NCBI GenBank assembly: GCA_905160935.1
Contig: CAJHZI010000190.1
Location: 1,333,501-1,397,500 of the forward strand
Direction: 5' to 3'
Source of the DNA: Enchytraeus crypticus
Taxonomy: Eukaryota > Annelida > Clitellata > Enchytraeida > Enchytraeidae
DNA length: 64,000 nucleotides
The notes under the pieces are model-generated. The model saw nothing but the letters and a program-made list of their open reading frames with translations, was not told the DNA's origin and made no database searches. Shown here piece after piece: positions 2,703-57,765 of the stretch. Every line of letters starts with the position of its first letter. Position 1 is the stretch's first letter. The position numbers and the translations under genes are program-made.

Positions 2703-5700
2703 CTAGTTAGCGCCCCCTCGTGTAGACGAGAGATCATAGTACTGCACTCGTCCCTGCTTCAGCATCGTGCGCCACTTGTCCTTTATGTCGACGTTGGAGC
2801 GGAACGGAAGCCGATGTTGGAACTTGGCCCAGTTTCCTTCTCCGTACGTGCGCACCCCCTCGTAAACGAGCTGAACAACAACAACAACAACATCATGTTA
2901 TAATGCTGAGCAACAACAACATCATGTAGAGGCGATAAGAATAATATTAATATATCACAGTGTTGCCTGTATTAACTATTAACATATGTTATTATCATAG
3001 TTATATAATAACATATGTTAATAGTTAATATAGGCAACTATTAACATATGTTATTATCATAGTTATATAATAACATATGTTAATAGTTAATATAAGCAAC
3101 TATTAACATATGTTATTATCATAGTTATATAATAACATATGTTAATAGTTAATATAGGCAACTATTAACATATGTTATTATCATAGTTATATAATAACAT
3201 ATGTTAATAGTTAATATAGGCAACTATTAACATATGTTATTATCATAGTTATATAATAAAATATGTTAATAGTTAATATAGGCAACTATTAACATATGTT
3301 ATTATCATAGTTATATAATAACATATGTTAATAGTTAATATAGGCAACTATTAACATATGTTATTATCATAGTTATATAATAACATATGTTAATAGTTAA
3401 TATAGGCAACTATTAACATATGTTATTATCATAGTTATATAATAACATATGTTAATAGTTAATATAGGCAACTATTAACATATGTTATTATCATAGCTAT
3501 ATAATAACATATGTTAACAGTTAATATAGGCAACTATTAACATATGTTATTATCATAGTTATATAATAACATATGTTAATAGTTAATACAGGCAACAGTC
3601 AATCAACGTTAGGTCAAAGATTTACAGCCCCAGGCACTGGCTGGAGCCTGTGACGATGTCGGTAAGACACTCGACCGTGGATCAGTATGCGCGAGGTTCA
3701 AATCCTGGGTTCTCCCGTCACTGACATCGCTTTCGAGTGAGAAACTGACGTTAACATTAGCTTTACAGGGTTTATACAACAACCTAAACCTTTAACAACC
3801 TTAGAATGTCTTAATAGCATAGGGTAATGTCACAAAGTTATAAATGACAGATCCTGAGGTGAATTGAACCTTCATGGTTTCAAATCCCAGCCGCGCTGAT
3901 CTGAGAGTAAAATCTCGGACATTCACTGGACTGGTTACATAGAAAATGGTCTAAATATCAGAGCTACATTTTAACTAAAACATCAGTTTAACTAGTAGCT
4001 ATTAGCTATTCAACTAGCTTATGCCGGTCTCTACAAATAACCGATGGATAGCAACATAAAACAGCCAATAAATAGCAACCAATGGTTAACAATCTTCAAC
4101 AACCTATTAACAACAACTTTAAACAGCCAATAAATAGCAACCAATGGTAAACAATCTTCAACAACCTATTAACAACAACTTTAAACAGCCAATAAATAGC
4201 AACCAATGGTTAACAATCTTCAACAACCTATTAACAACAACTTAAAACAGCCAATAAATAGCAACCAATGGTAAACAATCTTCAACAACCTATTAACAAC
4301 AACTTTAAACAGCCAATAAATAGCAACCAATGGTAAACAATCTTCAACAACCTATTAACAACAACTTTAAACAGCCAATAAATAGCAACCAATGGTTAAC
4401 AATCTACAACAATCTATTAACAACAACATAAAACAGCCAATAAATAACAACCAATGGTTAACAATCTACAACAATCTATTAACAACAACATAAAACAGCC
4501 AATAAATAACAACCATTAGTTAACAATCTACAACAATCTATTACCAACAACTTTAAACAGCCAACAAATAACAACCAATAGTGAACAATCTTCAACAACC
4601 TATTAACAACAACCTACAACAATCTATTGAACACAACAAACCTTTTCTTCTGCCTCAGTCCATGGATACCTCTTTCTCCTGGAGCCCTTCTTTGTTTCTT
4701 TATTTCTTACTTTCCTCCATCCCACGTCAAAATCCTCTTCAGACGCCTGATCCGACACGTCCTTGACAAAACTCTGCTGTTGTTGTAGTCTCGTCAGTCT
4801 CTTATCATCGATATCATCTCCAGGACTGTTGATCCTGGTTGACATGGAAGGCTTAGCGCTGGTGGAGCAGGTGGAGGAATCATTTTCCATATCTGAGTGA
4901 CCTGACACGTTCTCTAAATCACTGTCAAGTGGACTGACCTTATCACTTAATCTTTCACTCACATCATTGCTGGACTCGATTCTATTCAACTCCTTGCAGA
5001 GTTTTTGATTACTTTTATTGCCTAATCCTTTGCTTCCCCTCAGAATAGGTCCTTTCTTACATCTATCTCTTTTTCCTTTATATTCGATAATCGAGGCAGA
5101 TGTATCTGAAGCCAACTTCTTTCCAGACGGCTCCATTACAGGATTTGTTTCCGAAGGATTTGTAACACTATGAAGTTTGACGATTTTAGTTCCATAATTA
5201 GAAGAAAGTATTTTTGGAGCTGGTTTGTTTCCCACACGATTCTCCTTAGACAGTTGTGCCTCAGAAGGCTGCACTTTCACACCCTTCACATCAAGCCCTA
5301 TTGTAGCTTCATTACTCAGCTCTTTGTCTGAGTTCCTTTTGCTAATTGAGCTGGATTTAGATGAACTCAGTTCATTATCTCCATGAGGTTTAGTTGTACT
5401 AGACTTTCGTTTAACTGAGAAAGACCTATCCGTAGAATTTTTTGAAGATTCAGTCCTTTCCGTGCTTCTCAGAACATTTTCTATTGTACCTAAAGAGAGT
5501 TCAGCCTGTAATTTATTTTTACTGTTATTCTCAGCCACCACAACTCTTTCCATTGATGAGGTGGCATTGGGTCGATTGCTGGAAGCTGGCAAAGCTTCTC
5601 TTGGTGTTACCACAGTAGACATTTTTCTTACATCAAAACTCTGTCCAGCCAAACTACACCCCACAGCATCTCTCTGCTCTCCATGCGCATCTGCTGGCGT

Positions 5701-7938
5701 ATTCAAACATTTCTCTGCCTCAGAAGTCTTTGGAAAAATCATAATGGTTCTCTTTTCAGCGGTCAGCGATGCTTTTAACGCGGCAGCACTAAAAGCGTAT
5801 TTGCTTCGTCTGCCAGAAGCAGATGCAGTATTACTTTCTTTTCTATATGCCGGAGGAATTCTTGATTCTTGCCTTGCAGACTTTTCTTTGGAATGTATTT
5901 CATCCAGACTTGAACTTCCATTCCTCAATGATTTATCAACTGAAGCACTCTTTCCAGCAGAAGTAGCAGAATGAATGTCTGAGTGGATCACTGATCTTTC
6001 CCCTGAGCTAGTCACGTTTGATTTATTTTCCACACACGTCACTTTATCCGTTTGACCATTTTTTACTGCAGGTATGGAATTTCTTACAGATACCGTTCTT
6101 TCAGAGTTATCCTCATATAAAACCAGCTGTCTATTGACTTTCCTTTTCATACTCATAGTGCCACATAATGGAACACTTTCTACAGCAGAAACAGAGTTGT
6201 TTACAGAAGAAGAGCAGGCACTTATACCAGACACTGGAGTGACTTCCTTTAACTGGACTGATAACTCTTCACTACCGGACAAAACTTTCTCACGACCCGC
6301 CTCAATCATAACAGAATCCCTATTCATAGCATCCACAGAAGTCGATAGAATACGTTCGGATTGTATTCCAGAATTTTCTTCGACAGCAACAGCTGCCACA
6401 TTAGTTTCTTCCCCTAGCAAAGCACTACGTCCTCCAGTGGTAGCAACAGTTGATCTCAATAGCAAGCGTTTCTTTGGTGAAAATTCCAAAGGAAGAGATG
6501 CGGATCGTTTCACAGGCCGAATAGATTCAGCTATCCGGCTCTTTGGAACTAATACTGGACTTTTCTGTACAGATCTCGAAAAGATCTTCTGTGCAGGAAC
6601 GGCTTTTGTGATTTCTGGCGACGTTTCTTCATCTGCCAAGACAATTATTTTACAGTCAGCCTGATGATTCGAATTATTGTGTTGTTGCTGCTTATTACCA
6701 TGAAGAACCATAGCTGCAATTCTGCTGTCCGCTATCTCTTTAAGCTTAGTATTGTCATTGGTATGAACAGGAGTATCCGTAATAATGTCGTCTTCATCAG
6801 CGCTATCATCAAATTCCAGGTTGAGACTATCCATGGATCCTAAATCAGCTGATTCAGACTGCAGTGAAATTATTCTATCCCTATCTTGCAGCAAGCTCTG
6901 AGAGTAGCTGTTCTGTGACTGTTGAGATGACTCGGGTTCTATTTCTGGTTCTATTTCTGGTTCAAATTCTGGTTCTATTTCTGGTTCTATTTCTGGTTCT
7001 CTTTCTGGTTCTATTTCTGGTTCTATTTCTGGTTCTATTTCTGGTTCTAATTCTTGTTCTATTTCTGGTTCAATTTCTGGTTCTATTTCCGGTTCTATTT
7101 CTGGTTCTATTTCTGGTTCAATTCCTGGTTCTATTTCTGGTTCTATTTCAGAGAGTTCTACAAGAGCAAGTTGACATTTCCCTCCTCCAGACATGATTTT
7201 CTCATCCAGCTCATCTCTCTGTGACAACACATCACTGTCAGGATTGTACCATGCCTCATCACCGCTCCCAGTAAAAATCAAATAAGTATCGTTACAGATA
7301 CGAGCACCACCAGCCTGTGAGGCATCCACAATCGTTAGACTAGATCTCTTAGGCGCAACATTACCTCTGGTTATTTCTGTCAATTTCAAATTTCGTACTT
7401 GATCAGTGTTGTATCGACTTTCATTACTGGTTTGTGAATTAGCATGCTCTACACTGGAAGCAGGTTCGCTATCAGATGACGTAATTCTTGTAGATAGAAT
7501 TACACCAGAAGACTGCTTGTGCTTGTCTGACTGAGCAATATTCTGACTCATCGATTTACTTCCACGGTTTATTTCCGATTCAGAATTATCAATAACAAAC
7601 TCTAAATCTCTAAAAACTGCAAAATTCATTTCCATATCATCACAAGGTACAATTCTCTTTGATCTAAAGTTATTGACAACAAATTGTCTGGCAAATCTCG
7701 TCTCAATTTGTCTAGGATTTTTTTCTGAGAGTATGATTCGCTCAGTGACTTGATGAGTTGTTGGACAGGGACACCCAGCAATGGTTTGAGAGGTAGATTT
7801 CTTAGACAGAGAGACGTCATGATGAGATATTTGAACTTCTTTTACACAATTTTCAGATCCTTCGGATAGCGAGTCCATTAAATTACAGCTTAATTCATTT
7901 CTATCCATTCTACTACCTGTAATAGTATTATTACTCAT
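2703..7938 (-). CDS. telomeric repeat-binding factor-like protein (Myb/telobox), two exons seen
   Basis: Exon 7938-4642 (1099 codons) and exon 2870-2703 (55 codons plus TAG) join in phase 0, giving 1154 residues. The donor is AAG|gtttgt and the acceptor is ttgttcag|CTC. The joined C-terminus is a Myb domain with tryptophans near residues 1093, 1113 and 1132, the block YGEGNW, and a telobox [10 protein letters not shown] (about 1126-1135). This is the signature by which vertebrate TRF1 and TRF2 bind TTAGGG repeats. The rest is low-complexity, Ser-rich and charged, with about 75 residues of EPEI-type repeats near 264-338. No TRFH dimerisation domain is visible after the chosen ATG. The frame is open for 13 codons above that ATG and then meets TAG, so earlier exons may exist to the right; 8988-9118 is a candidate. 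The Myb call is strong. Assignment to the TRF family rather than another telobox protein is inference. Confidence 0.78.
2965..3596. repeat. 62-bp tandem array of perfect hairpins, about 10 copies
   Basis: Each unit holds inverted arms ctattaacatatgttatta and taataacatatgttaatag around the 11-bp loop tcatagttata, plus a short linker ending ataggca. Units are nearly identical, with only a few substitutions across about ten copies, which points to recent expansion or homogenisation. Confidence 0.92.
3618..3772 (+). mobile_element. SINE-B (tRNA-headed)
   Basis: The tRNA-like head begins near gctggagcc and carries a B box, gaggttcaaatcctggg. It is followed by the conserved domain cactgacatcgctttcgag..gaaactgacgttaac and a short attagctttac tail. 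Confidence 0.75.
3800..3965 (+). mobile_element. SINE-C (tRNA-headed)
   Basis: The head is gaatgtcttaatagcatagg and the B-box region is ggtttcaaatcccagcc, followed by gctgatctgagagtaaaatc and cattcactggactggttac. Other copies lie at 31213, 37697, 50535, 58470 and 62015. Confidence 0.75.
4041..4635. repeat. 62-64-bp tandem array, about 9 copies
   Basis: The unit core is aacagccaataaatagcaac, then caatggttaacaatc and caacctattaacaac. It runs up to the donor of the TRF-like Myb exon at 4642. Copies diverge at the right end. Confidence 0.88.
6930..7152 (-). repeat. in-frame EPEI-type coding repeat
   Basis: A 12-bp unit (ggttctatttct on the plus strand) encodes Glu-Ile-Glu-Pro repeats for about 75 residues of the TRF-like protein. 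Rare units read [12 protein letters not shown] or EPEF, so the array is imperfect but fully open. Confidence 0.9.
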
Positions 7939-8089
7939 TTCAGTATATTCTCCGTTTATTTCACATGAAAATTCTTTCTATAGGTCACAGTTTAAAAGTT
8001 AACTGAAACTGCTGAATACAATAAAACAAAAAACAAATGGACATTAAATATAATAAAAGGTCCGGGTCACTGGAGAATAGACCAACCAT

Positions 8090-8310
8090 AAACCGCATGT
8101 GTCATACGAAGCTACTACCAAGCAAAACGGAGAAACAACCCCAGAAGCTGTATTATTCCCAAGCCAAAGCTACATTGAGATGTCGGTAAGGTACAGCCTT
8201 TTCTAAAGGTATTAACTCATTAATCTATGGAATGCTCTTATGACACGAGGAAGCAGAATGTGAGTAGTGCATAAATATGTACCTTGAACCTGCTATTTGG
8301 CAGAACACAA
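8090..8310 (+). mobile_element. SINE-A fragment
   Basis: It keeps the cagaagctgtattattcccaa block, the gtattaactcattaatctatgga block and the 3' hairpin cctgctatttggcagaacac of SINE-A. Confidence 0.6.
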
Positions 8311-12500: not shown

Positions 12501-12780
12501 GGAAGAATAGGCATCAGTTCAAAAGGAGTGGTTATAGAGGATAGCCAAGTTTCACTGATGGCAAAACAGTCAAACTTGTGAGTCTCAGCCAAATAATGAA
12601 AAGCAATGATATTGTCTGAGTTAGAGAGGGATCGGATGTTAAGAGAGCAAAGAGAAATATTGCTTTGAAGCGAATTAACCGGAATTCTCGATCGAAACCT
12701 GCTTACAAACTGGCAAATCAGTAATTGTAAACAATGCAGAAAGTACAATATACATTACAATATAGTTATACACAAATTAC
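9590..12780 (-). mobile_element. CR1/L2-type LINE, near full ORF2, decayed
   Basis: Reading down the minus strand: an APE-type endonuclease (12748-12029, with ITGDLNIHLDNP and TLDVVIT), a linker (11867-11178), RT fingers (11227-10922, YRPISNLSYISKL), the RT palm (10940-10605, DLSAAFDTIDH, GVPQGSV, YADDTQ), the thumb (10669-10307), a C-terminal domain (10270-9854) and a 3' UTR ending near a (TAA)n run at about 9590. The pieces lie in different frames, so ORF2 carries several frameshifts and is not active. No ORF1 is recognised upstream. DLSAAFDTIDH and YADDTQ are typical of the L2/CR1 side of the jockey superclade. It may lie in a 5' intron of the TRF-like gene or be intergenic. Confidence 0.9.
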
Positions 12781-14252: not shown

Positions 14253-14283
<31 letters not shown>

Positions 14284-16577: not shown

Positions 16578-25647
<9,070 letters not shown>

Positions 25648-25835
25648 AGGTGGAATTGAAGAGGAATCTAGTTCTTCTGAGGATTCGGATTAGAGGTGGG
25701 ATTGAAGATGAATCCAGTTCCTCGAAGGATTCGGATTAGAGGAAGAGTTAAAGAGGAGTCCAGTTCTTCTGAGGATTCGGATTAGAGGTGAGATTGAAGA
25801 GGGGTCCAGTTCCTCGAAGGATTCGGATTAGAGGT
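25648..25835 (+). repeat. four extra copies of the stonin C-terminal codons after the stop
   Basis: The end of the last exon (agttcttctgaggattcg, gattag) is repeated about every 44 bp downstream of its own stop, each copy again ending GGATTAG. Copies two and four share a variant (agttcctcgaaggattcg), so duplication went in two steps. Confidence 0.93.
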
Positions 25836-26029
25836 GGAGTTGGATTAGATGTGGAGAGATCCGGGAGTGGAATGTGATTGTGGAATGGAGTGGAGTGGAT
25901 TGGAATGTGAGGAAGCTTTATGTGCAGATGCCACTTCCGGCATACATTCCTGATGAATACAGCTGCAGTTGTGAGTTTATTCAGGTGAACAAAACATCCG
26001 ACATGGCTTGAAGGAACGTGGAAGTGATA

Positions 26030-44879: not shown

Positions 44880-47800
44880 TAATTTAATAATTATAACGTA
44901 ATATTGACGTCACCTCTTTCCAGGGGCACTCTTTTGTCCTTTTGATGTTTGTCTTCATAACCATATTTCAATGCCGCATCAGTAAGATTATTCCGCAGTC
45001 CGTTCTCGTGTCCCACTATCAGTCCTTGATCATCCACAAATCTCACATCTTGAAACAATGTACCTCATATTTTTATTCATTCTTCAAGTCTACTGTGGCC
45101 TACATCATTGCTTCGACTTAAATATACATAATTATTACAACACTGGTAGTAATGATTATGTATATTTTGTGTACTTAGTATACTTTGGATTGATTTTCCG
45201 GATTTTGGAATTTGCACCGCTTTTGGACCTTCTTTTTGCACGCCTGCTGATTTTGTCTCAATAGTGCTCGATGTTGTCATTGATGACTGTAGCATTCTAA
45301 TTGTTGTTATTATTACTATTATTATTGTATTGAAATTATTAATTAGATTATTCGTTATAATTGGAGTTTGGTCTTTTGTCTTACTATCTAATGAACAATT
45401 TCTTGTTTGTGTGACTCATACAGCAAGCGTAAGATTGAGGATCTGCTCATTACGCTCGATGGGTTTAAAACAGCGAGTACCGTTGTATCGATGATGTCGA
45501 AACACTTGGCTGATTTCAAGTAAGATCATTTCTTTTTTAATGATATTTATCGCTTTATTTCATTCCAATTTGCTCGTTTATCAACAAGGAAATGGTCGTA
45601 ACCATGTGTCTCGTTTTGTATTTAATTCATTATAATATCAGTTCCCCGTGTTGTGCTCGGGTGTGGTTGGACCACTGCAGAATTGGGCAACCGCAAGCAA
45701 TCTGCCCCCGTGTACGTAAGAGGCGACTAAAGGCAGGAGCTGAGGATGGCAAGAGGTGACCCACCTCACCATGAAATATTTTCCCCCAGGATTAAATGGT
45801 AATTAATCCACCTAACTGAGGAAGGCAACGGGAAACCACCTCAGAAGCCAAATTTTTCCCATGCTATAGGCTACATATGGTATGGATAAGGCATAGCCTT
45901 TGTGAAGGGATTAACTTGTTGATCTATGGAGTGCTCTAATGGAGCGAGAAAACAGACTTTGAGTGTGAATGTGTACCTTGAACCTGCCACTTGGCAGTGC
46001 ACTGAAGAGAATATCAGTAAATCGTAAAGTTTGAATATATTTGAGCCAGCAGATCTGCTGCTTGAAATCAGTTTTGCTTAGGAAATCATGCAATTATAAC
46101 CGAGACGTGACTTGTTGCAAGCACTATATCTTAACCAGTCGCTAAACTATCCTTTATTTTGAGGACAGATCATTTTCTGTTGTGTTTTTCGGTATCCATA
46201 TTAGATATATATCTTATTACGTTTGTTTAGTAGGCATGGAAACATGTTGGTTTTCTGGCTCATTTATTCTCAATTTATAGAATTTTACGCAAAACTCTAA
46301 ATAGGAATCAAAATTATGCAAATCATTGAATATTGTTAGGGAGTAAGATACATATAAGGTAAAATGACAAATAGCATGTTTTATATTGTATTTACTGTAA
46401 ACAGATCTAAGCTATTGTTAAGATGTTTGAGAACAACCAATGACGACAAGGGATTTCCAGATCTAGATTCAGAGCTTGCATTCTTTGATGTAAGTTTTTT
46501 CAAAATTCATTCTAGTTTTATTTAGAAATTCTTCGCAATGTTAGAAGTTGTTACTGGCTTTTTTGTTACTGTGAATTTAGTTACTATGGCAAATGAAAGG
46601 TTGAATATGTGTAATAGAAACAAATAGCTATATGTTGAATATGTGTAATAGAAATAAATTGCTTTTTTAAAAAAAATCTTTACACAAGTCATCACATTTC
46701 ATCGGCTTAGTGCATGACTATGAATTATATCAGTGAGCCCATTAGAATAGTTAAAGCTGGTAAAGCTAATGTTAACGTCAGTTTCCTCACTCGAAAACAA
46801 TGTCAGTGGTGGGAGAGCCCAGGATTTGTACCCCGCACATATTGATCCGCAGTCGAGTGTCTTACCGACTTCGCCACTGGCTCCATCCTGTGAATTATTT
46901 TGAAATAGAAATATTCTGGCTTTAGATCAGTGAAAGTATCGTGTAATAAAAGTCGTACTGAATTTAGTGTAATATTAAATGCATGACAGCAAATTAAGCA
47001 ACTAAAAGTTCTAAGAGAATTTGTAATTTTAATGCACTTTTTGCTTCTATTCTGTTGTAGAACGCCTTTGATCATCAGAAAGCTAAGAAGGACGGAGTAA
47101 TTAAGCCTTCTAAAGGTAACTAGCTATTTCACTTGTCCATACTTACAGTAGAGCTCTCTGTTGTAGACTCGTTTGACTTGTCTGGTGATTGATAGACTGA
47201 TTAAAGAGTGATTGATTGATGGACAGATGATAGGTTAAATAATAAATTTATATAAACTAATGCATTTTTAACCTCTTTATTTAATTGTAAATTAATTAAC
47301 AAGATACTTGTTCTTAACTCGCTGTCCTAGCACTCTGAAGGTTTGACAGTTGCTCGCTAAAAGGTATTTTCGGGAATTGACAAGTTGCAATCAAGTCTTG
47401 TAATTTTTTCTATTGCATGATTTACTTGCATTGGTGAATTCTATATGATTACATGATTACCTCACAGGGATCAATCCTATATGATTGCATGATTACCTCT
47501 CAGGGATCAATCCTATATGATTACATGATTACCTCTCAGGATCAATCCTATATGATTACATGATTACCTCTCAGGGATCAATCCTATTTGATTACATGAT
47601 TACCTCTCAGGGATCAATCCTATATGATTACATGATTTACTCTCAGGAGTAAATAATATATGATTATATGATTTACTCACAGAACGTCAGAAAGGGGATT
47701 CGGTTGGTGAGCGCCAAGGCTCCAGAAATTGCTACAAATATTTAAACGAATGGAAAAGTCTCAAATAGGGGATTGGCTGGTGGTGTGGTGTAGGACAGAG

Positions 47801-50800
47801 AGGATTTGAGACGGTCTATTTGTAACCCGACCCTGGTTAAACTGGGATTGAAGTGAGGATGATAATGATGATGATGATGATGGTATGTATGATTTACTCA
47901 CAGGGATTAATCCTATATGATTACATGATTTACTAGCAGGGATCAAGCCTATATTATTATATGATCTATTCGCAAGAGTTAATCCTTATGATTACATGAT
48001 ATACTCTCAGGTGTGAATCCTAACTATGACAGAGCTGTGAGTGACATGGATTCAATCAATCAAGAACTGAGTCATTACCTGGAAGAACAGAAAAAACTTC
48101 TCAAGTGTAAAGTAAGACAATTTGTTAATTCCTATTGTTATATTACTAATATTTATCATATTATTTTCTAGCTTCCTCTTTCTTCTGGATTATGTGGTAT
48201 TTTGTTTCTTTAAATACTTATATCTTAAAAATACTTATATCATATACAACTGAAAGTAGCTTAATTTTTATTTTTCTTAACGATTAATGGTCATCCAATA
48301 TTTTTTGAAATGAAAGTGACTTTTTATTATCAATCAGTAAAAAGCTAAAAGCTAATGTTAACGGCAGTTTCCTCACTCGAAGGGCGAGACCAGGATTTGA
48401 ACCCCGCACATACTGATCCGCTGTCGAATATCTTACCGACATCACCGCTGGCTCCAGCCACATCGCCAGTATTACAGCGAAATAAATATAATTGATCTGC
48501 AGAACATAGCGTACTGGGGAACCGGTCGTAACCGGTTTCAGATGGAGGTGCCGGACAGTGCGCTGAAGGCAGTACCGGATGAGTATGAGGTGACGTCACA
48601 GCGGAAGGGTTTCCGTAGATACCACACTGAGGACATCAAGGACATGCTGGCACGCCTGTCCAACGCTGAAGATAGGAGAGACTCCGCCCAGAAAGACACG
48701 ATGAGATGTGTCTTCAACCAGTTTGACAAGCAGTTAGTTTATTAGCTTAATTAGTCCTCAACCAGTTTGACAAGCAGTTAGTTTATTAGCTTACTTCATC
48801 ATCATCATCATCATCATCTTCTCTTAAATCCCAGTTGAACTAGGGTCGGGATACGAATAGACCTTCTTTATTAGCTTATTAGTTATTAGTTATTCTTTAA
48901 TAGTTTATTAGCTTACTTACGCTTTCATTTTCCAGTGATTTTCTGTATGAAGGAAGGGTTAAAGCTACCTTCGTGATATGAGAAATTTCATAGAATAAAC
49001 GTAGCAATTCCTCTTACATTTTATTAGCTATTGATTGCACAGCCCCACAGAGATTAAGTTTTACTGAAGTAACCTTGACGACTAAGTTACAACATTAACT
49101 TACTCTGTTATATTTGTAACTTTAGCCGTTTATTTGTATACCCCACAGATCTTGTACGAACTAAAAGCTTAGACTTTAGACTCAAATTAAGTACCTATTA
49201 GCTCTCTTAAGTTAAATGCTCTATGGTTGACTTGGCTTTGTTTTGTTTTTGCAAGAAACGACTATCAATACTAACAATAATGCATAGCACTGTAGTGATT
49301 GCTGGCTTGATTGATGAATTGATTGATTTATTGATGAATTGAGTAGTCGATTGATTGATGAATTGAGTGCTTTATTGATGAATTGATTGTTTGATGAATT
49401 GATTGATATGTGAATTGATTTACTGATGAATTGATTGATTCAATAATGAATAGAGTAATCGATTGATTGATGAATTGATTGATTTATTGATGAATTGATT
49501 GATTGATGAATTGATTGATTGTGATAGCTATGAGCTATGGAGCAGAGCTATACAGTGTCTATCAGTGATGGATGTGCTACTCTCTCTCGCCTACTACTCT
49601 AGAAATGCAGAAGGGGTCATGTGCAGACCTGTGTTTGTCCAATCGGATCAGGTTTCTTATTCTACTCTAATGATGTTTAAGACTCGTATTGATTCAATAA
49701 TTGTTCATTCTGAGAGTGTTTAACGTCAACTTCGTATGCTCGTCTTTTCAGAGACCTCAATTACCTGCGCAAATAACTTCAATTATAATTAATTATCTGT
49801 GCTTTTAACAGATAATGGGAGTTAATTGCACAGATAATTGGAGTTAATTGAACAGATAATTAGAATCTGCTCAATTAACTCCTATTTTCTGCGCAATTAA
49901 CTCCCACTATCTGCTCAACTCCTATAATTATCTACGCAATTAACTCCAATTATAATTATAATTGTCTGTGCTTTTAACTCTAATTATCTGCGCAACTAAC
50001 TTCCATTATATGCGCTATGCAGGTTCACGAGTTGCGACCCTCTTGTAAACTTCCTTTCCTTAAATTTCTTATCTTTGGACTGGTTTAGCTGAAATTTAAT
50101 TTACAGAAATTTCGTTTATTTTTTGTTTGTCAGCCTGGAATTAATTCCCTAGTGCTCGTTGCTATTACGGACAATGGCAGCAATCTAGTTGTTGTTGGTG
50201 TTGTTCTTGTGCTGCAGCTGAATCTTGTGGTTTATTATGGCGTCTAAATTATTGATGTCAAGCGGTGTTTACATATACTTAGCCTATTAAAGAGATTTAA
50301 ACTTTCTCGCCAAGATTGATATATTTTCTCGTAGTAAAGCTTAAATAGACTCTATGCGATATTACATGATGACACATTAAGATGATGAAACTTGACAACT
50401 AGATGTGGTATGACAGTAGCAAAGTGATTGATACTATTATAATTATTAGAAGTTCTTTACATGTATTTTGAATAAGTTAAAAAATACAGACCGTAACAGT
50501 GGTGTTTCAAATAATTCAGTTAATAATAACACACATTATAGTGAAATGATCAACTATGATGATATCTATCACTTTTAATATCACATGATTAAACCGTTTG
50601 GCAATTTGTCCATTATCCATGTAACCAGTCCGGTGAATGTCCCAGATTTTACTCTCAGATCAACGCGGCTGGGATTCGAACCCACAAGGGTTCCATTATT
50701 ATTATTATTATTATTGTTATTATAATTAGAAAATATTATTAGTTAATAATATTTATTTATTTAATATTAGTTAATAATTACATCAGTTGTTTTTGATGTA

Positions 50801-53800
50801 TCCTAGAAAAGATTCTATGATTGATGAATGTAGTTTTAAGCTTTTTAATTATTTTGTTTTTTTTGCCATGAAATAAACTATGATATAAAATCATGTTGAC
50901 TATCTGCTAGACTATCGATCTAATGAGTCAAGTTTGAATGGATTAACTTGATCGATAGAGTGTGATAACAGATTCTGTAAAGGAATACTTGCAGTGGACC
51001 TGCCATGTGGCAGAACACTAAAGAGTTATAAAGAAAGTAATGATTGTTACAATTAAGGTTTCTGTTGGTAACTTTATCTTTACAATTTTTAAGTCATGGC
51101 TTAATTTATTTCTCATTTAATTGATTGATTGTTGTTCAGCCGTTCATAGAGATTAAGGATGGACGACACCCTTGCATTGCCCGAACATTTGCTGGCGGAG
51201 ATTTTATTCCTAATGATTCAATCATTGGTCTCTCTGAGGTATAGAATGATTCAATCATTGGTCTTTCTGAGGTATAGAATGATTCAATCATTGATCTCTC
51301 TGAGGTATAGAATGATTCAATCATTGGTCTCTCTGAGGTATAGAATGATTCAATCATTGGTCTCTCTGAGGTATAGAATGATTCAATTATTGGTCTCTCT
51401 GAAGTATAGAATTACATCAGAGTAATGTTACATTTGTTAATATTGTTGATATTGAACATTGCCTATTTAACAATTTGTAACCCATTATTTTACCTTAGCC
51501 TGGCTATTATATTGCTAAAATGGCTTTTATTGTGTAGATTAGAACACATCACCGTCAATAATTTAAATTATTTAGTTTGCAATATAACAAAATATACTGG
51601 TAAATCATACAAGTAATATAACAGATTGGGCTTGGTAGTGGTGAGCTGATCAAGTAGATTGATATCTTAGATATAATTAAGTAGATATCTTTGGAGTAAT
51701 TTTCTGATTTTAGCAGTTTCCATTATTTTGGACCTTCTTTTTACTTGCCAGCTTGGATTTGTCTCTATAGTGCTCAATGTTGTCATTGATGACTGTAGCA
51801 CTCTATTTGTTACTATTATTAGTATTTTATTGTAAAGTTAGATGATTTAAAGATCCACTCATATGTGGACATTAAGAGGAAAGCGGAAGACAGAGAAGCG
51901 TGGAGGCATTATATACCATGGACCTGCCAGTAGGCAGTGCATTAAGGGAGAGAGATTGTAATGAGTCTAGATTATTTCTACTACATTTTCTCAGGCCGGT
52001 GATGATTCGGAGGAGGCGGCGGCTCGTATTGTGATAGTGACAGGACCCAACATGGGGGGCAAGTCCACCCTGATGAGGCAGGTGGGGCTGCTGGTGGTGC
52101 TGGCCCAGCTGGTGAGTTCTTATATGGGCAGGAACTCTGCCTACACCGTGTGGCACTTAGATCTAAAAATAGATATCAGTTCTAAAAATAGATATCAGTT
52201 CTAAAAATAGATTTCAGTTCCAAAAATAAATATCAGTTCTAAAAATAGATATCAGTTCTAAAAATAGATATCAGTGGTGGGCGTGGCTTGGATTTGAACT
52301 CTGCCCCTCCAGATCTTCACCAGCATAATCAGCTGCGCCATCTGCGAATCATTTGAGAAAAATGTTTTATAATTAACTATATAATGAGTATGTTTTATTA
52401 TGATGATTTGTGGTAGTTTAAGTAGTAGTATATGTTAATTTTATTTACTATTTCTCTTAATTATTTTCAAAATTTGAATAATAATTTCTAAGAATATGTT
52501 ATTGTTAATCAACCGTGAGTCATATTCTATTCTAATATGTCGGAATAGTTAGCATAAGTAGCTCTTTCTGATCATGATCATCAGATTTATTTAAAGGGTT
52601 AATTGTTTTATACTTTATTATCCTTTCTTTATACTATTTCACCAGATCTGTTGTGTGCCTATCTCTCTGGCAAATGATACAATTTATTACTCTATCATTT
52701 ATTTATTATCATTTTCTATCTCTATTATCATTTACTGTCTCTAGTGTTCTGCATAGGGCAGGTCCGAGGTACATAGTCATATTTCCTAGTCACCTCTTAC
52801 AACACGTGCAGTTAGCGGTTGGTCTATTCTTCAGTGTTTCGGTCACAACACTGGAATTCATTTACTTTTCTATTAATGTTAATGCATAGATTAAGGTTAA
52901 TAAGATTAAGTCTGCCACATACAAGACGATTAACATTGCTCTAGTTACATTAGAGGTCTCTAAGCATCATCTGTGCTGCATACAGGATATAGAGAATGCT
53001 TGTATTTGTGCGTAACTGTTTTTACTAACCTAACATACTTTTTACGAAGATCATAATTATAAATATAAACTTATTTCAATATTGAACGTTCTTTAGTTGT
53101 TGTTGTTGTTGGTTTGCAGGGTTGCCATGTGCCGGCGGAAAGTTGCCACCTGACTCTTGTCGACAGAATATTTACTCGACTTGGGGCTACCGATCGGATT
53201 ATGTCTGGTAATATTTCTACTACAGTTCTTAAATCTACGACATTTTCATTTGCAAACTTTTTCTCTTATGACAACTTTTTTGATTTACTTTAATTGTTTT
53301 TTGCAATGCAGCTGCATGAATAGTAGTTGACAAATGAAAGCGATGAAAGAGTCATTTTTCGGATGAATTTAAATTCTCTCTCTCTTAGTGCACTGCCTAC
53401 TGGCAGGTCCATGGTATATAACGCCTCCACTCTTCTCTCTCTTCCGCTTTCCTCTTCATTTCCGCATATGAGTGGGTCTTTAAATCATCTAACATACCTA
53501 ATCTCGGCCTGCCTCTGCCTCTTATTCCTTCCATTCTACCTTCTATGACCTCTTTTAGTAGACCTTCCTTTTTAATTGACTATAAATTACAACAAATTAA
53601 CTTACGAGACAATGTGAATGATTGATTGACCAAGTGCTAATGACTGATTGACTGTTTCAGGAGAGAGCACGTTCTTTGTAGAGCTGAGTGAGACAGCCTC
53701 TATACTACAGCACGCTACTGAACACTCGCTAGTTCTACTGGACGAACTAGGTTAGAGGCGACACGTTTATTTCATATCTACTGCGTATATTTATGTTTAA

Positions 53801-56800
53801 TTTTAATTTTATTTCGTTCTTGTTTTCATTATATTTCATTCTTGTTTCATGCTTTCTTACATCCATTCGTACATATTATTCTTTCTTAGTTTCCTATTTG
53901 CATAGAACTGTTTCTTTAAATTTATTTTTTAGGCAACACGCTTATTTCATATTTACTACATTTATTAACGTTTATTATTGTTACATTTTCATTTTATTTC
54001 ATTCTTGTTTCACTCATCCATTCGTACATGTAATTCGTTCTTAGTTTCTTATTTGCCTAAAACTCTTGTTTTTTTAATGTATATTTTTAGTTCGCAAAGC
54101 TCAGGTAGCTGTAGGAACAAACGAGTTTCGAACATTTATCTTCAATTTCATTTCTTGATTAGCAATGACTGTGGATTCCTGGTAGCGGAGATAATTTAGC
54201 TGATTGATTAATTGACTGACTCAGGCGACTGTAGGAACAAACAAGTTCCGAACATTTATCTTCAGTTCCACTTCTTGATCAGCAATGAACACTGTTTCCT
54301 GGTAGCGAAGATAATTTAGATGATTGATTAATTGACTGGCTGATTGTTGATTGAGTGTGATATTTCGTAAATGAGCGATCGATTGAATGATAAATTTACC
54401 AATCAATCAATTGATTGATAAATCAATTGATCTTTGATCAATCAATTGATTGATTGATCAATCGATTGATTGACTGAAGGTCGTGGTACGGCAACGTACG
54501 ATGGCAACGCTATAGCGTGTGCGGTTGTCAAGGAGCTGTCAGACAACATCCGTTGTCGCACTTTGTTCTCCACTCACTACCACTCTCTCGTGGAAGAGTT
54601 CTCATTGGATAAGAATGTCAGGCTGGGTCACATGGTTAGTCGCTTCATACTGACTTTCATAAAACCTCGGCATCGTAGTTAATCTTGTATCAGTTAGTCT
54701 TATATCGGAGCTTGCTGCTGATTGTCACTTTCAATTGCAAAGGTATGATTAACCATGGATAGGATTAATAATAACCTGCCCCAACTTGTAAAACTGTCTC
54801 GAAGACCGAAGACCGGCTGTGACATCGCTATAAAAATTGTCGGAGGTTATTATTATTATTATACTTGGATGAAAAAACGAACGTTAAGCCATTACTACTT
54901 ATTTTTATTGTTATTATTATTAATTTGTAATATTCTTCACTTCTGTAAATTTGTTATGATTCATATTGTGTTCAGTTAAAAAAAGCTAAACCTAAAGTTA
55001 ACGTCAGTTTCCTCACTCGAAAGCAATGTCAGTGACGGACGAGCACAGGCTTTGAACCCCGCACTTACTGATCCGCGGTCGAGTATCATACCGTCATCGC
55101 CACTGGCTCCAGCCAGTGGTTTTAATAGGGTATTAAGTTATAACAAATTAATACCCTTAATACCCTAATAACTTAATACCCTTAATAAAAGTGTATTAAA
55201 AACTTAATACCCTTCTGTTACGGCAGGAGTTTATATATAGGCCAAGTTGATGGCAATCTAGTTTCAATTGATTCTTCTGGTTAGGTCGGTGTAAATATTT
55301 AGTCTATTAAGTGATATTTGTTTTAAGTGTTGTTCAGTGTTACATTGTTAGTGGGTTTAGCCGTACCTGACTAAACCTGAGGATATTTCTCAGCGCTTCA
55401 TCATTTAGTGAAAATGTTGCAATCTCTATATTTCCATAATAATTAATTATTGTGCATGAAAAGATGGTTGCGCAGTGTTAGATAGCATCATGGATATGCA
55501 GTACTTATACAGATCTGTAAGGCTTATTAGACGTCTTTTTGGATATGTAATGCTTACAATACTGCATGGCTGTAAAGTGTTGAACATCGACATAGGCATG
55601 CAATGCTTACATTGCTACAGGCCTGTATGTTGTTAGATATTGTCATGTCTATACATAATACTACAAGCTTGTATTATGTTGTTAGATATTGTCATGTCTA
55701 TACATAATACTACAGGCCTGTATGTTGTTAGATATTGTCATGTCTATGCATAATACTACAAACCTGTATGTTGTTAGATATTGTCATGTCTATGCATAAT
55801 ACTACAGGCCGGTATGTTGTTAGATATTGTCATGTCTATGCATAATACTACAGGCCTGTATGTTGTTAGATATTGTCATGTCTATGCATAATACTACAAG
55901 CCTGTATTATGTTGTTAGATATTGTCATGTCTATGCATAATACTACAGGCCTGTATTATGTTGTTAGATATTGTCATGTCTATGCATAACACTACAGGCC
56001 TGTATGTTGTTAGATATTGTCATGTCTATGTATAATACTACAAGCCTGTATTATGTTGTTAGATATTGTCATGTCTATACATAATACTACAAGCCTGTAT
56101 TATGTTGTTAGATATTGTCATGTCTATACATAATACTACAAGCCTGTATTATGTTGTTAGATATTGTCATGTCTATGCATAATACTACAGGCCTGTATTA
56201 TGTTGTTAGATATTGTCATGTCTATGCATAACACTACAGGCCTGTATGTTGTTAGATATTGTCATGTCTATGTATAATACTACAAGCCTGTATTATGTTG
56301 TTAGATATTGTCATGTCTATGCATAATACTACAAGCCTGTATTATGTTGTTAGATATTGTCATGTCTATACATAATACTACAAGCCTGTATTATGTTGTT
56401 AGATATTGTCATGTCTATGCATAATACTACAGGCGTGTATGTTGTTAGATATTGTCGTGGATGTATATATTGCTACAGGCCTGCATGGTGGAGAACGAGA
56501 ACGACGCTGACCCTAGTCAGGAGATGATAACGTTTCTGTATAAGCTCAGCTCAGGGGCTTGTCCTAAGAGTTACGGGTTCAATGCTGCTAGGCTTGCTCT
56601 CATACCTGACGAGGTGTGCCGCTCATTCATTCATTCATTCGTTGTTCATTGGCTCGTTCATTTATTTATTTGTTCATTCATTTTTTCATTTGTTCATTCA
56701 GTCATTCATTTGTTTATTTGTTCATTCATTCATCCATTCATTCATTTGTTCATACATTCATCCATTCATTTATTGTTCAATTGTTCATTCATTTGTTCAT

Positions 56801-57599
56801 TCATTAATTTGTTTATTTATTTATTCATTTGTTCTTTCATTCATTTGTTCATTCATTCAATCATTTGATCATTCATTTGGTCATTCTTTCATTCAATTGT
56901 TCATTCATTCATTCATTCATTTGCTCATCCATTTATTTCTTTATTCATTCTCTCATTGATTCATTTGTTCAATGATACCAGACCACTGATACCTGATTTG
57001 TCATGTGAATTTGAAACAATTGAAAGAGACAGATGGTTATATTTTGTTGTACACAATAAAGTGTGAAGTATTATGTATGTAGATTATTTTGTTGTTATAA
57101 AATAAAGTATGAAGTGTTATTTTTATAGATTATTCGCGTGGCTCACTGCAAAGCTGCTGAGTTTGAAGAATCAGTGAAAGTTGTCAAGCTGTTTCGGTTA
57201 GTTCTTCTTCTTTATTCTGAAGTATCCATCTATATTTGTTCTATACTCTGCATTAATTAATTGAAACGCTTTCAAGGCTTATAGAATCACATTAATTAAT
57301 GATAACAATAATAGTAAAGGTTTAACGTCCGTTTCCTCATCCAAGGATGATGTCAGGGATGTTGAAAAGATGTTAATGGATTAGAGTATAATGATAAATA
57401 GATAATAGTAATGATTAATTAATATTGTTATTGATAAATAGTATTAGTTTCAAGAGCTCGTTAGTTGATTGATTTGATTGATTGATTGACTAAACATGTG
57501 TGTTAATGTGTTATGTGTTACAGAGATCTGTGGACTGGATGTGAAACTGACTCAACATTTGATGTGAACACATTACGTGAAGCTCTTAGCATATGTTAA
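29020..57599 (+). CDS. MSH6: DNA mismatch repair protein MSH6, 32 exons
   Basis: MSH6 pairs with MSH2 as MutS-alpha in the nucleus and recognises single mismatches and short loops. All 32 exons were placed by splice sites and phase; they sum to 4515 bp (1504 residues). Domain order: PCNA-binding PIP box (QSNIFSYF, residues 6-13); PWWP domain (about 99-155, [13 protein letters not shown]); an acidic and basic disordered region; MutS I with the mismatch-probing Phe-Tyr-Glu (residues 534-536, [10 protein letters not shown]); the connector, lever and clamp; the ATPase with Walker A GPNMGGKS (1279-1286), Walker B LVLLDE (1354-1359) and STHYHS (about 1391-1396); and a helix-turn-helix end. This matches the family throughout, and every catalytic motif is intact. 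The length exceeds human MSH6 (1360), mainly through the N-terminal region and a repeat insertion near 830-862. It stands in tandem behind stonin, with no shared regulation visible. Exon coordinates are in the three block entries. Confidence 0.97.
30345..30515 (+). mobile_element. LINE-D 3' ends, nested, abutting the MSH6 PWWP exon
   Basis: A LINE-D end (gtgggcagtgcactaagaga then (GA)n, 30425-30465) is interrupted and followed by a second hairpin end (ggacctgcctgttggcagtg at 30483). The second ends about 25 bp before the exon 2 acceptor at 30537. Confidence 0.7.
31213..31440 (+). mobile_element. SINE-C, full length
   Basis: The head gaatgtcttaatggcatagg, a B-box-like segment at cgaatcccagccgcg, gagagtaaaatctcagac, cattcactggactggttac, and the 3' end agatatcaacgtagttgatc plus tcactatagtg. 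Confidence 0.8.
31790..31935 (+). mobile_element. SINE-B, full length
   Basis: The best copy: gagccagtggcgacttcgg (A-box region), gaggttcaaatcctggg (B box), the shared domain cactgacatcgctttcgag..gaggaaactgacgttaac, and an attagctttaccagc tail. Confidence 0.8.
32536..32598 (+). mobile_element. SINE-B tail
   Basis: cgtcactgacatcgccttcg, agtgaggaaactgacgttaa and cattagctttat. The head is missing. Confidence 0.6.
32843..32905 (-). mobile_element. SINE-H tail, minus strand
   Basis: (ATCA)n, then aagaatttaacgtccggttc, ctcgccataaggcaatgt and agggacgtc. It begins about 20 bp after the MSH6 exon 4 donor. Confidence 0.6.
33370..33560 (-). mobile_element. SINE-E, long copy
   Basis: Read on the minus strand it ends in ..gaggaaatggccgctacacc and a short ATT-type tail. 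On the plus strand, cccaacagcatacatcacta and gtcctaaatgaaagcc mark its body, as in the copy at 61858-62005. Confidence 0.65.
35720..35870. mobile_element. SINE-G fragment with (AAT)n
   Basis: (AATAATAAT)-rich run, then ctgtgtcatagccggtgtct and cttcgagaccgctttacagg, shared with 8820-8940 and 54760-54870. Confidence 0.45.
36800..37135 (-). mobile_element. LINE-D 3' end with coding relic
   Basis: The longest copy. It begins on the plus strand with (CT)n, the hairpin agtgcactgcctactggcgg, then minus-strand coding for a C-terminal non-LTR peptide containing [40 protein letters not shown] and VPWTRQ. Such GRPR/W ends are usual in LINE ORF2 C-termini. No RT core is present. Confidence 0.8.
37697..37930 (+). 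mobile_element. SINE-C, full length
   Basis: Close to the 31213 copy over its whole length, with a good B box (gggttcgaatcccgg) and the 3' end acatagttgatcatttcac. Confidence 0.8.
38540..38652. repeat. (TCA/TCT)n microsatellite after the MSH6 exon 11 donor
   Basis: A TCATCATCATCTTCA-type run leading into SINE-F. It is open in the MSH6 frame as poly-Ser, but the exon 11 donor at 38521 precedes it and the family protein has no such stretch, so it is intronic. It is most simply the (GAT)n tail of the adjacent minus-strand SINE-F. Confidence 0.8.
38653..38765 (-). mobile_element. SINE-F, minus strand
   Basis: Plus strand: atcccagtttaaccagggtc, gaatagactgtctcgaatcc, cctatttgaga and ccattcgttt, the reverse of the copy at 47755-47885. 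Confidence 0.7.
38766..40200. other. unassigned part of MSH6 intron 11
   Basis: AT-rich. The segment 39540-39860 is noticeably less AT-rich (cctcacttaaggtctccacc to gaagtcccgtcc-like text) and looks like an inserted piece of foreign origin. I cannot assign it: no protein, no B box and no clear terminal repeats. Confidence 0.35.
40289..40400. repeat. (GT)n with GAGTTT variants at the MSH6 exon 12 donor
   Basis: The donor itself (gtatgtgtgtg) is the first part of the GT run. gtgagtttgagtgggt units follow. Confidence 0.85.
40800..41177 (+). repeat. ~24-bp array running into the MSH6 exon 13 acceptor
   Basis: Units alternate tttgtgtgtttgtagctgtg and tttgtctatttgtagctatg. Each carries a decoy ttgtag|ctg like the real acceptor tttgtag|CTGGGACAG at 41177. 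The number of copies is about fifteen. Confidence 0.8.
41345..41412 (-). mobile_element. SINE-B tail, minus strand
   Basis: aaagctaaggttaacgtcag, tttcctcgctcgaaagcgat and gtcagtgacgggc. The head is truncated. Confidence 0.6.
41535..41640 (+). mobile_element. SINE-H with (GATT)n tail before MSH6 exon 14
   Basis: gacgtccctgacattgcctt, atggcgaggaaccggacgtt, then ATTGATTG-type repeats that end 7 bp before the exon 14 start at 41648. Confidence 0.65.
42300..42465. repeat. (TTATAT/ATTATTAA) low-complexity array
   Basis: ttatattattaattatatta-type units, in an MSH6 intron. No coding sense. Confidence 0.85.
42545..42602 (+). mobile_element. shared SINE domain next to MSH6 exon 15
   Basis: gagacgtccctgacatcatc, ctcgggtgaagaaccagacg and ttaaatctac. 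The fragment ends about 14 bp before the exon 15 acceptor. Confidence 0.55.
42797..42890 (+). repeat. 21-bp coding minisatellite in MSH6 exon 15
   Basis: Four copies of a unit coding ASQGSTG (gcatctcaggggtcaacagg plus t), with a GVTG variant, at about residues 830-862 of MSH6. It lies after [10 protein letters not shown], where human MSH6 has a short linker, so it is an insertion tolerated in a loop. Confidence 0.92.
42960..43215. mobile_element. SINE-E tail joined to SINE-F body
   Basis: (AAT)n, aggtttaacactgtttct, gacaatgtcaggga (SINE-E, reversed), then aacgtcagaaagggcatgtg, cttggtgagcacctaggctc and aactggaattttaaaggga (SINE-F). A similar join recurs around 47680. Confidence 0.55.
43800..43890 (+). 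mobile_element. SINE-F 5' fragment
   Basis: gatccaaaccaacatcagaa, agggcattcagttggtgagc and ctcccgaaattgctacaaaa, as at 43060. Confidence 0.55.
44146..44285 (-). mobile_element. LINE 3' end fragment
   Basis: (AAT)n, caattagagtgctacagtca, gagcactactgagacaaaat and aaggtccaaaaacggtgcaa: the 3' UTR of the 9590 LINE, about 135 bp, very similar to it. Confidence 0.8.
44280..44460. repeat. (GAAT/GACT) tetranucleotide-type array
   Basis: gaatgaatgactgaatgaat-type units running up to the MSH6 exon 18 acceptor at 44471. Confidence 0.85.
44835..44882. repeat. (TA)n microsatellite
   Basis: Nearly pure TA run in MSH6 intron 18. Confidence 0.9.
45178..45330 (+). mobile_element. LINE 3' end fragment, plus strand
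   Basis: From tactttggattgattttccg through ggaatttgcaccgcttttgg and gatgttgtcattgatgactg to a (TTA)-type tail. Confidence 0.8.
45645..46015 (+). mobile_element. SINE-A, fullest copy
   Basis: The head ttccccgtgttgtgctcggg, then gcccccgtgtacgtaagagg, cgactaaaggc, gaaggcaacgggaaaccacc, cttgtgaagggattaac-like block, and the hairpin end cctgccacttggcagtgcac tgaagaga. About 370 bp. Its last 30 bp match the LINE-D terminus. Confidence 0.85.
46752..46888 (-). mobile_element. SINE-B, minus strand, full length
   Basis: ggtaaagctaatgttaacgt, tcctcactcgaaaacaatgt, ggatttgtaccccgcac, tgatccgcagtcgagtgtct, then cgccactggctcca. Confidence 0.8.
47440..48010 (+). repeat. ~36-bp array ending at the MSH6 exon 22 acceptor, split by SINE-F
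   Basis: Units of ctctcagggatcaatcctat, atgattacatgattac occur about six times at 47440-47665 and again at 47890-48010. The real junction is ctctcag|GTGTGAATCCTAACTATGA at 48010-48011, so each unit resembles acceptor plus exon start. Confidence 0.88.
47680..47885 (+). mobile_element. SINE-F with (GAT)n tail
   Basis: aacgtcagaaaggggattcg, gttggtgagcgccaaggctc, aaacgaatggaaaagtctca, ccctggttaaactgggattg, then (GATGAT)n. It lies inside the exon-22-acceptor array and is therefore younger than it. Confidence 0.75.
48350..48462 (-). mobile_element. SINE-B, minus strand
   Basis: aagctaatgttaacggcagt, ttcctcactcgaagggcgag (part of the shared domain deleted), gatttgaaccccgcac, gatccgctgtcgaat, ggctcca. 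Confidence 0.7.
48795..48870 (-). mobile_element. SINE-F tail, minus strand
   Basis: (CAT)n, then ttaaatcccagttgaactag, ggtcgggatacgaatagacc. Confidence 0.65.
49310..49525. repeat. (GATTGATGAATT)n array before MSH6 exon 24
   Basis: gattgatgaattgattgatt units running up to the acceptor gtgatag at 49527. Confidence 0.85.
49765..50025. repeat. inverted and direct copies of a ~25-bp unit
   Basis: ttaactccaattatctgcgc-type units appear on both strands (for instance cacagataattggagttaat at 49840 and aactcctattttctgcgcaa at 49887), so the stretch can fold on itself in several ways. Confidence 0.75.
50535..50695 (-). mobile_element. SINE-C, minus strand
   Basis: tatagtgaaatgatcaacta, ttaaaccgtttggcaatttg, agtccggtgaatgtcccaga, gctgggattcgaacccacaa. 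It stops at an (ATT)n run instead of the usual head. Confidence 0.75.
51213..51410 (+). repeat. MSH6: 33-bp array of the MSH6 exon 25 donor, six copies
   Basis: Copies of atgattcaatcattgg begin at 51213, 51246, 51279, 51312, 51345 and 51378. The first is coding (NDSIIGLSE) and ends at donor GAG|gtatag (51238/51239). Each later copy repeats the same donor. Confidence 0.96.
51715..51836 (+). mobile_element. LINE 3' end fragment, plus strand
   Basis: ttggaccttctttttacttg, ccagcttggatttgtctcta, gttgtcattgatgactgtag and an ATT-rich tail. Confidence 0.75.
51838..51958 (+). mobile_element. LINE-D 3' end before MSH6 exon 26
   Basis: gatgatttaaagatccactc, atatgtggacattaagagga, gaggcattatataccatgga and the hairpin cctgccagtaggcagtgcat, then gagagag. 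Confidence 0.75.
52162..52275 (+). repeat. 19-bp tandem repeat, six copies
   Basis: Unit tctaaaaatagatatcagt, six times with three substitutions, in MSH6 intron 26. Confidence 0.93.
52735..52850 (-). mobile_element. SINE-A fragment, minus strand
   Basis: tagtgttctgcatagggcag and gtccgaggtacatagtcata, then cacctcttacaacacgtgca and tgtttcggtcacaacac: the two ends of SINE-A with the middle deleted. Confidence 0.5.
53383..53568 (-). mobile_element. LINE-D 3' end, minus strand
   Basis: (CT)n, agtgcactgcctactggcag, gtccatggtatataacgcct, and the same C-terminal coding relic as at 36800-37135. Confidence 0.75.
53765..54070 (+). repeat. ~165-bp tandem duplication after the MSH6 exon 28 donor
   Basis: The blocks 53765-53930 and 53934-54070 both contain acacg(c/t)ttatttcatat, ttttatttc(g/a)ttcttgttt and catccattcgtaca in order. 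The copies have diverged by scattered changes and a small deletion. Confidence 0.8.
54104..54345 (+). repeat. ~122-bp tandem duplication in MSH6 intron 28
   Basis: Two copies starting tcaggtagctgtaggaacaa and tcaggcgactgtaggaacaa, both ending ataatttag(c/a)tgattgat. Confidence 0.88.
54760..54872 (+). mobile_element. SINE-G fragment with (ATT)n
   Basis: cctgccccaacttgtaaaac, tgtctcgaagaccgaagacc, ggctgtgacatcgctataaa, then (TTA)n. Confidence 0.5.
54985..55115 (-). mobile_element. SINE-B, minus strand, full length
   Basis: gctaaacctaaagttaacgt, cctcactcgaaagcaatgtc, gctttgaaccccgcac, tgatccgcggtcgagtatc, gccactggctcca. Confidence 0.8.
55610..56470 (+). repeat. ~44-51-bp minisatellite before MSH6 exon 30, about 18 copies
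   Basis: The unit is gttgttagatattgtcatgt, ctatgcataatactacag, gcctgtat(tat). Each contains tactacag|gcctg, nearly identical to the true acceptor and exon start (tgctacag|GCCTGCAT at 56478-56479). Confidence 0.93.
56625..56975. repeat. (CATTCATTTGTT)n array after the MSH6 exon 30 donor
   Basis: cattcattcattcatttgtt-type units begin 12 bp after the donor gtgtgc at 56614. Open frames here encode Phe-Ile-His-Ser repeats and are not genes. Confidence 0.9.
57312..57372 (-). mobile_element. SINE-E tail, minus strand
   Basis: aataatagtaaaggtttaac, gtccgtttcctcatccaagg, atgatgtcaggga. Confidence 0.65.
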
Positions 57600-57609
57600 T
57601 TTCTAACAC

Positions 57610-57765
57610 TTCACATGTATGTAAAACTGACTGAATATTTGATGTGAACACATTACGTGAATCTCCTATCTTCTATTGATCTCTAAACCTAACATTGATG
57701 TGAAACTGACTCGACTATGGATATGAACACATTATGTGAAGCTCTTTGCATGTGTTTTGCAACTT
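57610..57765 (+). repeat. two relic copies of MSH6 exon 32
   Basis: 57612-57680 and 57697-57765 repeat tgatgtgaacacattacgtg, aa(g/t)ctc and the preceding gtgaaactgactc of the last exon, with substitutions and a lost frame. They lie just after the MSH6 stop. Confidence 0.92.

Follow-up and report, generated by a model that had tools for sequence, protein, structure and literature searches.

We analysed a window of 64,000 nucleotides from the annelid Enchytraeus crypticus (assembly GCA_905160935.1, contig CAJHZI010000190.1, positions 1,333,501 to 1,397,500 of the forward strand), in which the genes for MSH6 and a stonin carry short tandem copies of sequence that spans their exon-intron borders. 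A third gene, TRF-like, lies upstream of both. In a sample of 260 splice edges from the same genome, 133 acceptors and 127 donors, such copies were no more frequent at edges than within introns when the two types of edge were pooled, whereas acceptors were spanned far more often than donors (26/133 versus 7/127, p=0.0007, whole sample, unmasked).

Genes and exon-edge copies in the window

MSH6 occupies positions 29020-57599 on the plus strand, with 32 exons that join into an open frame of 1504 aa and GT-AG boundaries in 31/31 introns; its homologues carry the name Msh6. The stonin (stoned-B-like) gene has nine exons at 16578-25647 (+), likewise open when joined, and was identified through homologues with PF00928, several of which are labelled stoned-B. 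The TRF-like gene lies at 2703-7908 on the minus strand and has two exons (7908-4642 and 2870-2703) in an open frame, the product of which contains a C-terminal Myb domain (PF00249, E 7.9e-11). The exon numbers used by a first-pass annotation of the window agreed with those of these rebuilt gene models. Median intron length, taken over the 39 introns of MSH6 and stonin, is 756 bp.

Among the 120 stonin matches listed of 229, the nearest named relative was Capitella teleta (68% over 100% of the queried region), the next named relatives, a chiton and Dimorphilus, reached at most 55%, and Branchiostoma was absent. For MSH6, the top identity was found with Paralvinella palmiformis (67%, in an alignment covering 54% of the region), and the best named match by E-value was a brittle star (58%), with Capitella at 55% and a Branchiostoma entry at 54%. 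Judged by these matches, the relationships of MSH6 appear less clear than those of stonin.

Local copies were detected as ungapped local self-matches at all offsets, with a score of at least 32 and with microsatellites masked. This detector replaced a blastn self-comparison, in which the pooled window edges did not exceed interiors and no cluster offset below 51 bp was reported. The window and nine CCT genes of the same genome together gave 834 local self-matches, where two Markov shuffles gave 2.5 on average, and 15.3% of the 30,198 intron bases of the window sit within local copies. The middle half of the offsets, taken from the strongest pair in each of 84 clusters, fell at 34-108 bp.

The first-pass annotation had listed 12 splice edges as copied into the neighbouring intron. 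Taking as confirmed a copy that spans the border with at least 8 exon and at least 4 intron bases, we recovered ten of the 12. Both border types are hit, with donors at stonin exon 5 and MSH6 exons 23 and 25 and with seven acceptors. Stonin exon 7 is marginal, and the match at TRF-like exon 2 does not qualify as an edge copy. Two arrays that had been described at terminal exons (stonin exon 9 and MSH6 exon 32) both hold; there the stop-codon end of the coding sequence is copied into the 3' flank, and they are not splice edges. The acceptor of MSH6 exon 31 is an addition to the earlier list. Copy numbers given by the program TRF for the edge and terminal arrays range from about 2 to 17.4. The individual cases are as follows.

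20697..20883 (+): stonin exon 5 acceptor, 2 copies of a 95-bp unit that takes in 51 bases of the exon, 88% over 92 bp; AG gone from the intron copy
20995..21263 (+): stonin exon 5 donor, the last 46 exon and 11 intron bases recur 212 bp downstream, 96.5% over 57 bp
21686..21970 (+): stonin exon 6 acceptor, 8.8 copies of a 32-bp unit that takes in 19 bases of the exon, 98%; AG retained in 8/8 matches
22411..22534 (+): stonin exon 7 acceptor, marginal, 19-bp partial copy 105 bp upstream with 17 bases of exon and 2 of intron
25612..25842 (+): stonin exon 9 (last), 5.0 copies of a 46-bp unit that includes the stop codon, extending into the 3' flank
37167..37275 (+): MSH6 exon 10 acceptor, two degenerate upstream copies at distances of 74 and 33 bp, with matches of 82% (34 bp) and 79% (33 bp)
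38306..38395 (+): MSH6 exon 11 acceptor, 42-bp copy at offset 48, 18 exon bases, 93%
40786..41188 (+): MSH6 exon 13 acceptor, 16.8 copies of a 24-bp minisatellite that extends over 3 to 11 bases of the exon (the best match covers just 3, a 73% match covers 11)
47437..48022 (+): MSH6 exon 22 acceptor, two blocks of a 36-bp unit, with 6.6 and 3.8 copies, that take in 8 to 12 bases of the exon
48710..48804 (+): MSH6 exon 23 donor, 2 copies of a 44-bp unit that takes in 23 bases of the exon, 90% over 51 bp
51212..51412 (+): MSH6 exon 25 donor, 6.1 copies of a 33-bp unit that takes in 27 bases of the exon, 96%; GT retained in 5/5 matches
55615..56490 (+): MSH6 exon 30 acceptor, 17.4 copies of a 49-bp minisatellite that takes in 8 to 12 bases of the exon
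57055..57134 (+): MSH6 exon 31 acceptor, 2 copies of a 46-bp unit that takes in 6 bases of the exon, 85% over 34 bp
57536..57756 (+): MSH6 exon 32 (last), 2.8 copies of an 80-bp unit, extending into the 3' flank
2870..2924 (-): TRF-like exon 2 acceptor, unsupported as an edge copy, CAA-rich 20-bp match with 1 exon base

Local copies at splice edges and elsewhere

The edge sample was drawn from the window (40 acceptors and 40 donors) and from further genes found in the assembly (524 Mb, 802 contigs). Nine CCT genes contributed 48 acceptors and 41 donors, 26 adaptin-domain exons on six contigs 22 and 24, and 11 proteasome exons together with one further MutS exon (C489) 11 and 10. Another 12 and 12 came from 13 exon pieces, found by tblastn, of two MutS relatives, presumably MSH2 and MSH4. 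We used 52/57 CCT matches, omitting C373, a long open copy, as well as C259 and C400, two duplicate pairs with long frames, and leaving last-exon donors uncounted, as well as 26/36 adaptin, 11/27 proteasome and 0/81 myosin matches; of 12 MutS_V matches, the C489 exon was used, and its C721 twin and the window's own were omitted. The contig pairs C489/C721 (L003, L004) and C259/C400 (L027, L028) are near-identical (100% and 99.9% over 3.2-3.3 kb) and are duplicate or haplotype contigs of the assembly. A comparison of copy numbers between haplotypes could draw on these two pairs only, which showed practically no differences, neither being at an affected window edge.

An edge was counted as spanned if a local copy at an offset of at most 450 bp covered at least 10 exon and at least 4 intron bases; edges without a call or with a splice score below 2.4 were dropped. 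The adaptin and proteasome pieces had about 300 bp of flank, so that longer offsets were missed there. Interior tests were made in the window, the CCT genes and the MSH2/MSH4-like genes and may contain unannotated exons, and all p-values assume independent edges.

Without masking, 33/260 pooled edges (12.7%) were spanned, compared with 2587/20148 interior tests (12.8%; gene bootstrap 8.7-16.6%). With masking, the counts were 24/133 acceptors and 6/127 donors, pooled 30/260, and 1935/20148 interior tests (9.6%; bootstrap 6.0-12.3%). Interior windows thus show local duplication at about the same rate as pooled edges, and the link with exon edges as such, suspected in the first-pass annotation, is mainly one of ascertainment. 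An effect of exon edges as such would, however, hit both sides alike, and the excess of acceptors over donors makes the pooled reading incomplete. Of the two readings that had been offered, a frequent local duplication that shows beside exons through its conserved copy and a process tied to splice junctions or transcription, the first, together with ascertainment, explains most of the data but not all, since acceptors exceed donors and acceptor flanks exceed interiors.

The split between acceptors and donors was first noticed in the CCT genes and then tested further. It holds in all 15 pairs of cut-offs (p 1e-5 to 0.006), in the window together with pair-called CCT edges (18/62 versus 3/64) and in the sample without the window (20/93 versus 4/87). 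The window alone gave 7/40 acceptors and 3/40 donors (p=0.31), the adaptin set 4/22 and 2/24, and the proteasome set 2/11 and 0/10. We consider the split likely to be real, though not proven.

Stretches of 150 bp contained a duplication on the acceptor side in 41/132 cases, on the donor side in 23/126 and in interiors in 92/543 (acceptor versus interior p=0.0006). Copies crossing the tested point and copies confined to the intron numbered 26 and 16 at acceptors, 6 and 18 at donors, and 541 and 498 in interiors. The crossing share at donors differed from that of interiors (p=0.012) and the share at acceptors did not (p=0.27). Copies reached across the point at 19.5% of acceptors and 8.5% of interiors, and intron-only copies lay within 150 bp of 12.0% of acceptors, 14.2% of donors and 7.8% of interior points.

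We then scored where copies end by their furthest reach, in place of the top-scoring alignment per edge, at the 52 acceptors and 23 donors where a copy reached at least into the last 30 bases of the intron. The earlier claim that copies stop at exact exon borders was not borne out in that form: ends fell within 2 bases of the border at 3/52 acceptors and 3/23 donors. Measured from the border, with intron positions negative and exon positions positive, the furthest reach varied between -24 and +79 at acceptors and between -28 and +46 at donors. Ends were denser just inside the intron (-10 to 0 in 14/52 acceptors and 13/23 donors); copies entered the exon at 33/52 acceptors versus 7/23 donors, and donor-side copies tend to end just short of the exon.

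The nearest copy of an acceptor, which we call a spare acceptor, kept its AG in 26 of 27 cases, compared with 21.9 expected from other dinucleotides, and the nearest donor copy kept its GT in 7/7; over all matches, AG was kept in 82/91 and GT in 25/32. The offset of spare acceptors was a multiple of 3 in 10/27 cases, as expected by chance, and selection on the reading frame was discarded as a factor. Microhomology at duplication junctions was also considered, and the nine clean two-copy cases were uninformative.

In the window and the CCT genes, 15% of the 25 bases directly before acceptors belong to GATT/TTGA tracts; the share is about 2% in interiors and less than 1% in the first 25 bases after donors. 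The tracts could serve as repeated branch-point-like motifs. Neither tracts nor microsatellites were predictive of duplication, be it at acceptors (p=0.81 and 1.0, respectively) or in interiors (0.40 and 0.88). Microsatellites were rejected as the seed of the acceptor excess, with which they had no association.

Duplication in the window also extends to places away from splice edges, including two arrays inside introns.

19613..20008 (+): intron-internal array, 22-bp unit, 18 copies, no exon touched
4052..4613 (-): array inside the intron of the TRF-like gene, 9.1 copies of a 62-bp unit

Coding sequence contains in-frame repeats in MSH6 exon 15 (42798-42894, 21-bp unit, 3.8 copies) and in TRF-like exon 1 (6935-7149, 12-bp unit, 17.9 copies, EIEP repeats), so tandem duplication happens within exons too where the frame is preserved. 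In a minus-strand gene at 58.7-62.6 kb, an exon and its flanks are tandemly duplicated (58714-59466 and 59782-60535, 754 bp, 91%), both copies having a 225-aa open frame without a Pfam match. A 45-bp unit is present about once beside one of these exons (matched part 59554-59572) and in 11.9 copies beside the other (60761-61288), so arrays expand locally, here at a place where no splice site is required; the growth presumably ran from the single unit to the array.

Two further kinds of repeat were seen by eye. Dispersed short elements with the look of a tRNA-like promoter lie in introns and intergenic DNA at about 31210-31360, 37700-37850, 50560-50700, 58480-58690 and 62020-62230. A long repeat at about 9600-12700 (-) resembles a non-LTR retroelement and has a partial copy on the opposite strand at about 13440-14230 (+).

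Explanations for the acceptor-donor split

The explanation that we prefer, and to which we give slightly better than even chances, is a frequent tandem duplication in non-coding DNA that is blind to exon borders and perhaps filtered by selection at donors. A non-coding stretch is copied beside itself regardless of where an exon begins or ends, and some copies expand into minisatellites. This part rests on what was observed, namely the overall rate of duplication, copies that run through borders, the lack of a pooled excess at edges, the AG retained in spare acceptors and the acceptor-donor split of the whole sample. A copy laid across a border would leave the exon with one intact edge, so that the event could survive, and the conserved exon copy would keep the pair recognisable. 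Selection would probably remove most donor-spanning copies and tolerate acceptor-spanning ones as spare intronic acceptors, most of which may be ignored by the spliceosome. Pairs that contain exon sequence would diverge more slowly and stay detectable for longer, which may raise the acceptor count above that of interiors. Donor-side copies are present yet mostly fall short of the exon, and this matches the residue of a filter against donor-spanning copies. The cause of the split would then be selection and not mutation.

Several results weigh against this explanation. The split leans mainly on the CCT genes, which on their own gave 13/48 acceptors and 1/41 donors (p=0.001); without them it is 13/85 versus 6/86 (p=0.09), and the sets fetched after the split was first seen gave 6/45 versus 3/46 (p=0.32). 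In the MSH2/MSH4-like genes its direction is reversed (acceptors 0/12, donors 1/12). The bootstrap ranges of acceptors (12-29%) and interiors (9-17%) overlap, and edges beyond the window are predictions, based not on transcripts but on profile matches, reading frame and splice-site scores for which the 39 window introns served as training set. Furthermore, a donor filter alone would not yield an acceptor-side total above that of interiors, and intron-only copies are commoner near both edges than in interiors.

That acceptor-side total is what a mutational process linked to acceptors would produce. The 3' ends of introns, with their branch point, their TG- or T-rich tract and the shift to a GC-richer exon, would then be hot spots of duplication, for example through breaks and short-homology repair. 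We consider such a process unlikely. The higher proportion of copies crossing the point at acceptors than in interiors and the concentration of GATT-type tracts before acceptors agree with it, but neither tracts nor microsatellites predict duplication at acceptors or in interiors, and intron-only copies are not commoner at acceptors than at donors. Also unlikely is a lineage-specific mutational process that prefers 3' splice sites and exon starts; it would have left about 1 in 5 acceptors with AG-bearing upstream spares and, in the manner of a ratchet, would make introns longer at the 3' end, supplying alternative acceptors and material for new introns.

The split might instead be a chance feature of the CCT genes on top of a uniform duplication in non-coding DNA, in which case ascertainment would account for everything. 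The equality of pooled edges and interiors fits this, and so do the lack of significance outside the CCT genes and the dominance of two of them, C795 (4/6) and C368 (4/8), in the per-gene acceptor counts. The whole-sample p-value and the reduced share of copies reaching across at donors relative to interiors speak against it, as does the agreement in direction between the window, adaptin and proteasome sets, and we find pure ascertainment doubtful. It is highly improbable that the assembler created or misplaced the local copies, a suspicion that the two near-identical contig pairs could raise, because nearest copies differ at 2 to 27% of bases, the exon frames of the window are intact and many contigs show the pattern.

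Comparison with known systems

Arrays in annelid introns have a precedent in the metallothionein genes of earthworms, which carry large minisatellite arrays in intron 1 (PMC12783039). The sections of that paper available to us place these arrays inside the intron and describe no crossing of an exon border, unlike the copies reported here. A role for tandem duplication at splice signals is proposed in the model of Rogers, in which tandem genomic duplication of an exonic AGGT segment gives rise to a new intron that is flanked by the two AGGT copies and lacking in relatives (PMC3443670, PMC4974935). Tandem duplication copies splice signals in E. crypticus too; in contrast to that model, the copies sit in introns that already hold both splice sites.

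Minisatellites that span exon-intron borders have been described in amphioxus under the name 'mirages', in Adh3, with troponin C and PGBD5 cited as further cases (PMC3087553, PMC3902484). Their units measure 10 to about 160 bp, both borders can be involved and many copies keep AG or GT (PMC3087553, PMC3902484), they are described for single genes, and their origin is called unclear and a role in intron gain is proposed (PMC3087553). The copies in E. crypticus share the unit that spans the border, the involvement of both borders and the retention of AG or GT in most copies. They differ in host, an annelid and not a cephalochordate, which concerns the taxon of the published cases and forms no part of the mechanism. 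In amphioxus, regular splicing is reported to go on undisturbed, and copy numbers are reported to differ between haplotypes or cells, a somatic instability; the present analysis covered genomic sequence. We found no report of mirages in annelids or of an acceptor/donor asymmetry in the open-licence literature, in a search that was little aimed at annelids and is weak evidence of absence.

A further difference from mirages is one of approach. In place of the single-gene accounts that we saw, edges were here counted against intron interiors and divided into acceptors and donors. With 26/133 acceptors and 7/127 donors spanned, it becomes countable whether splice sites attract duplication or filter it, and also whether spare acceptors feed alternative splicing. 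The split between acceptors and donors is a prediction that can be checked in any well annotated annelid or amphioxus genome.

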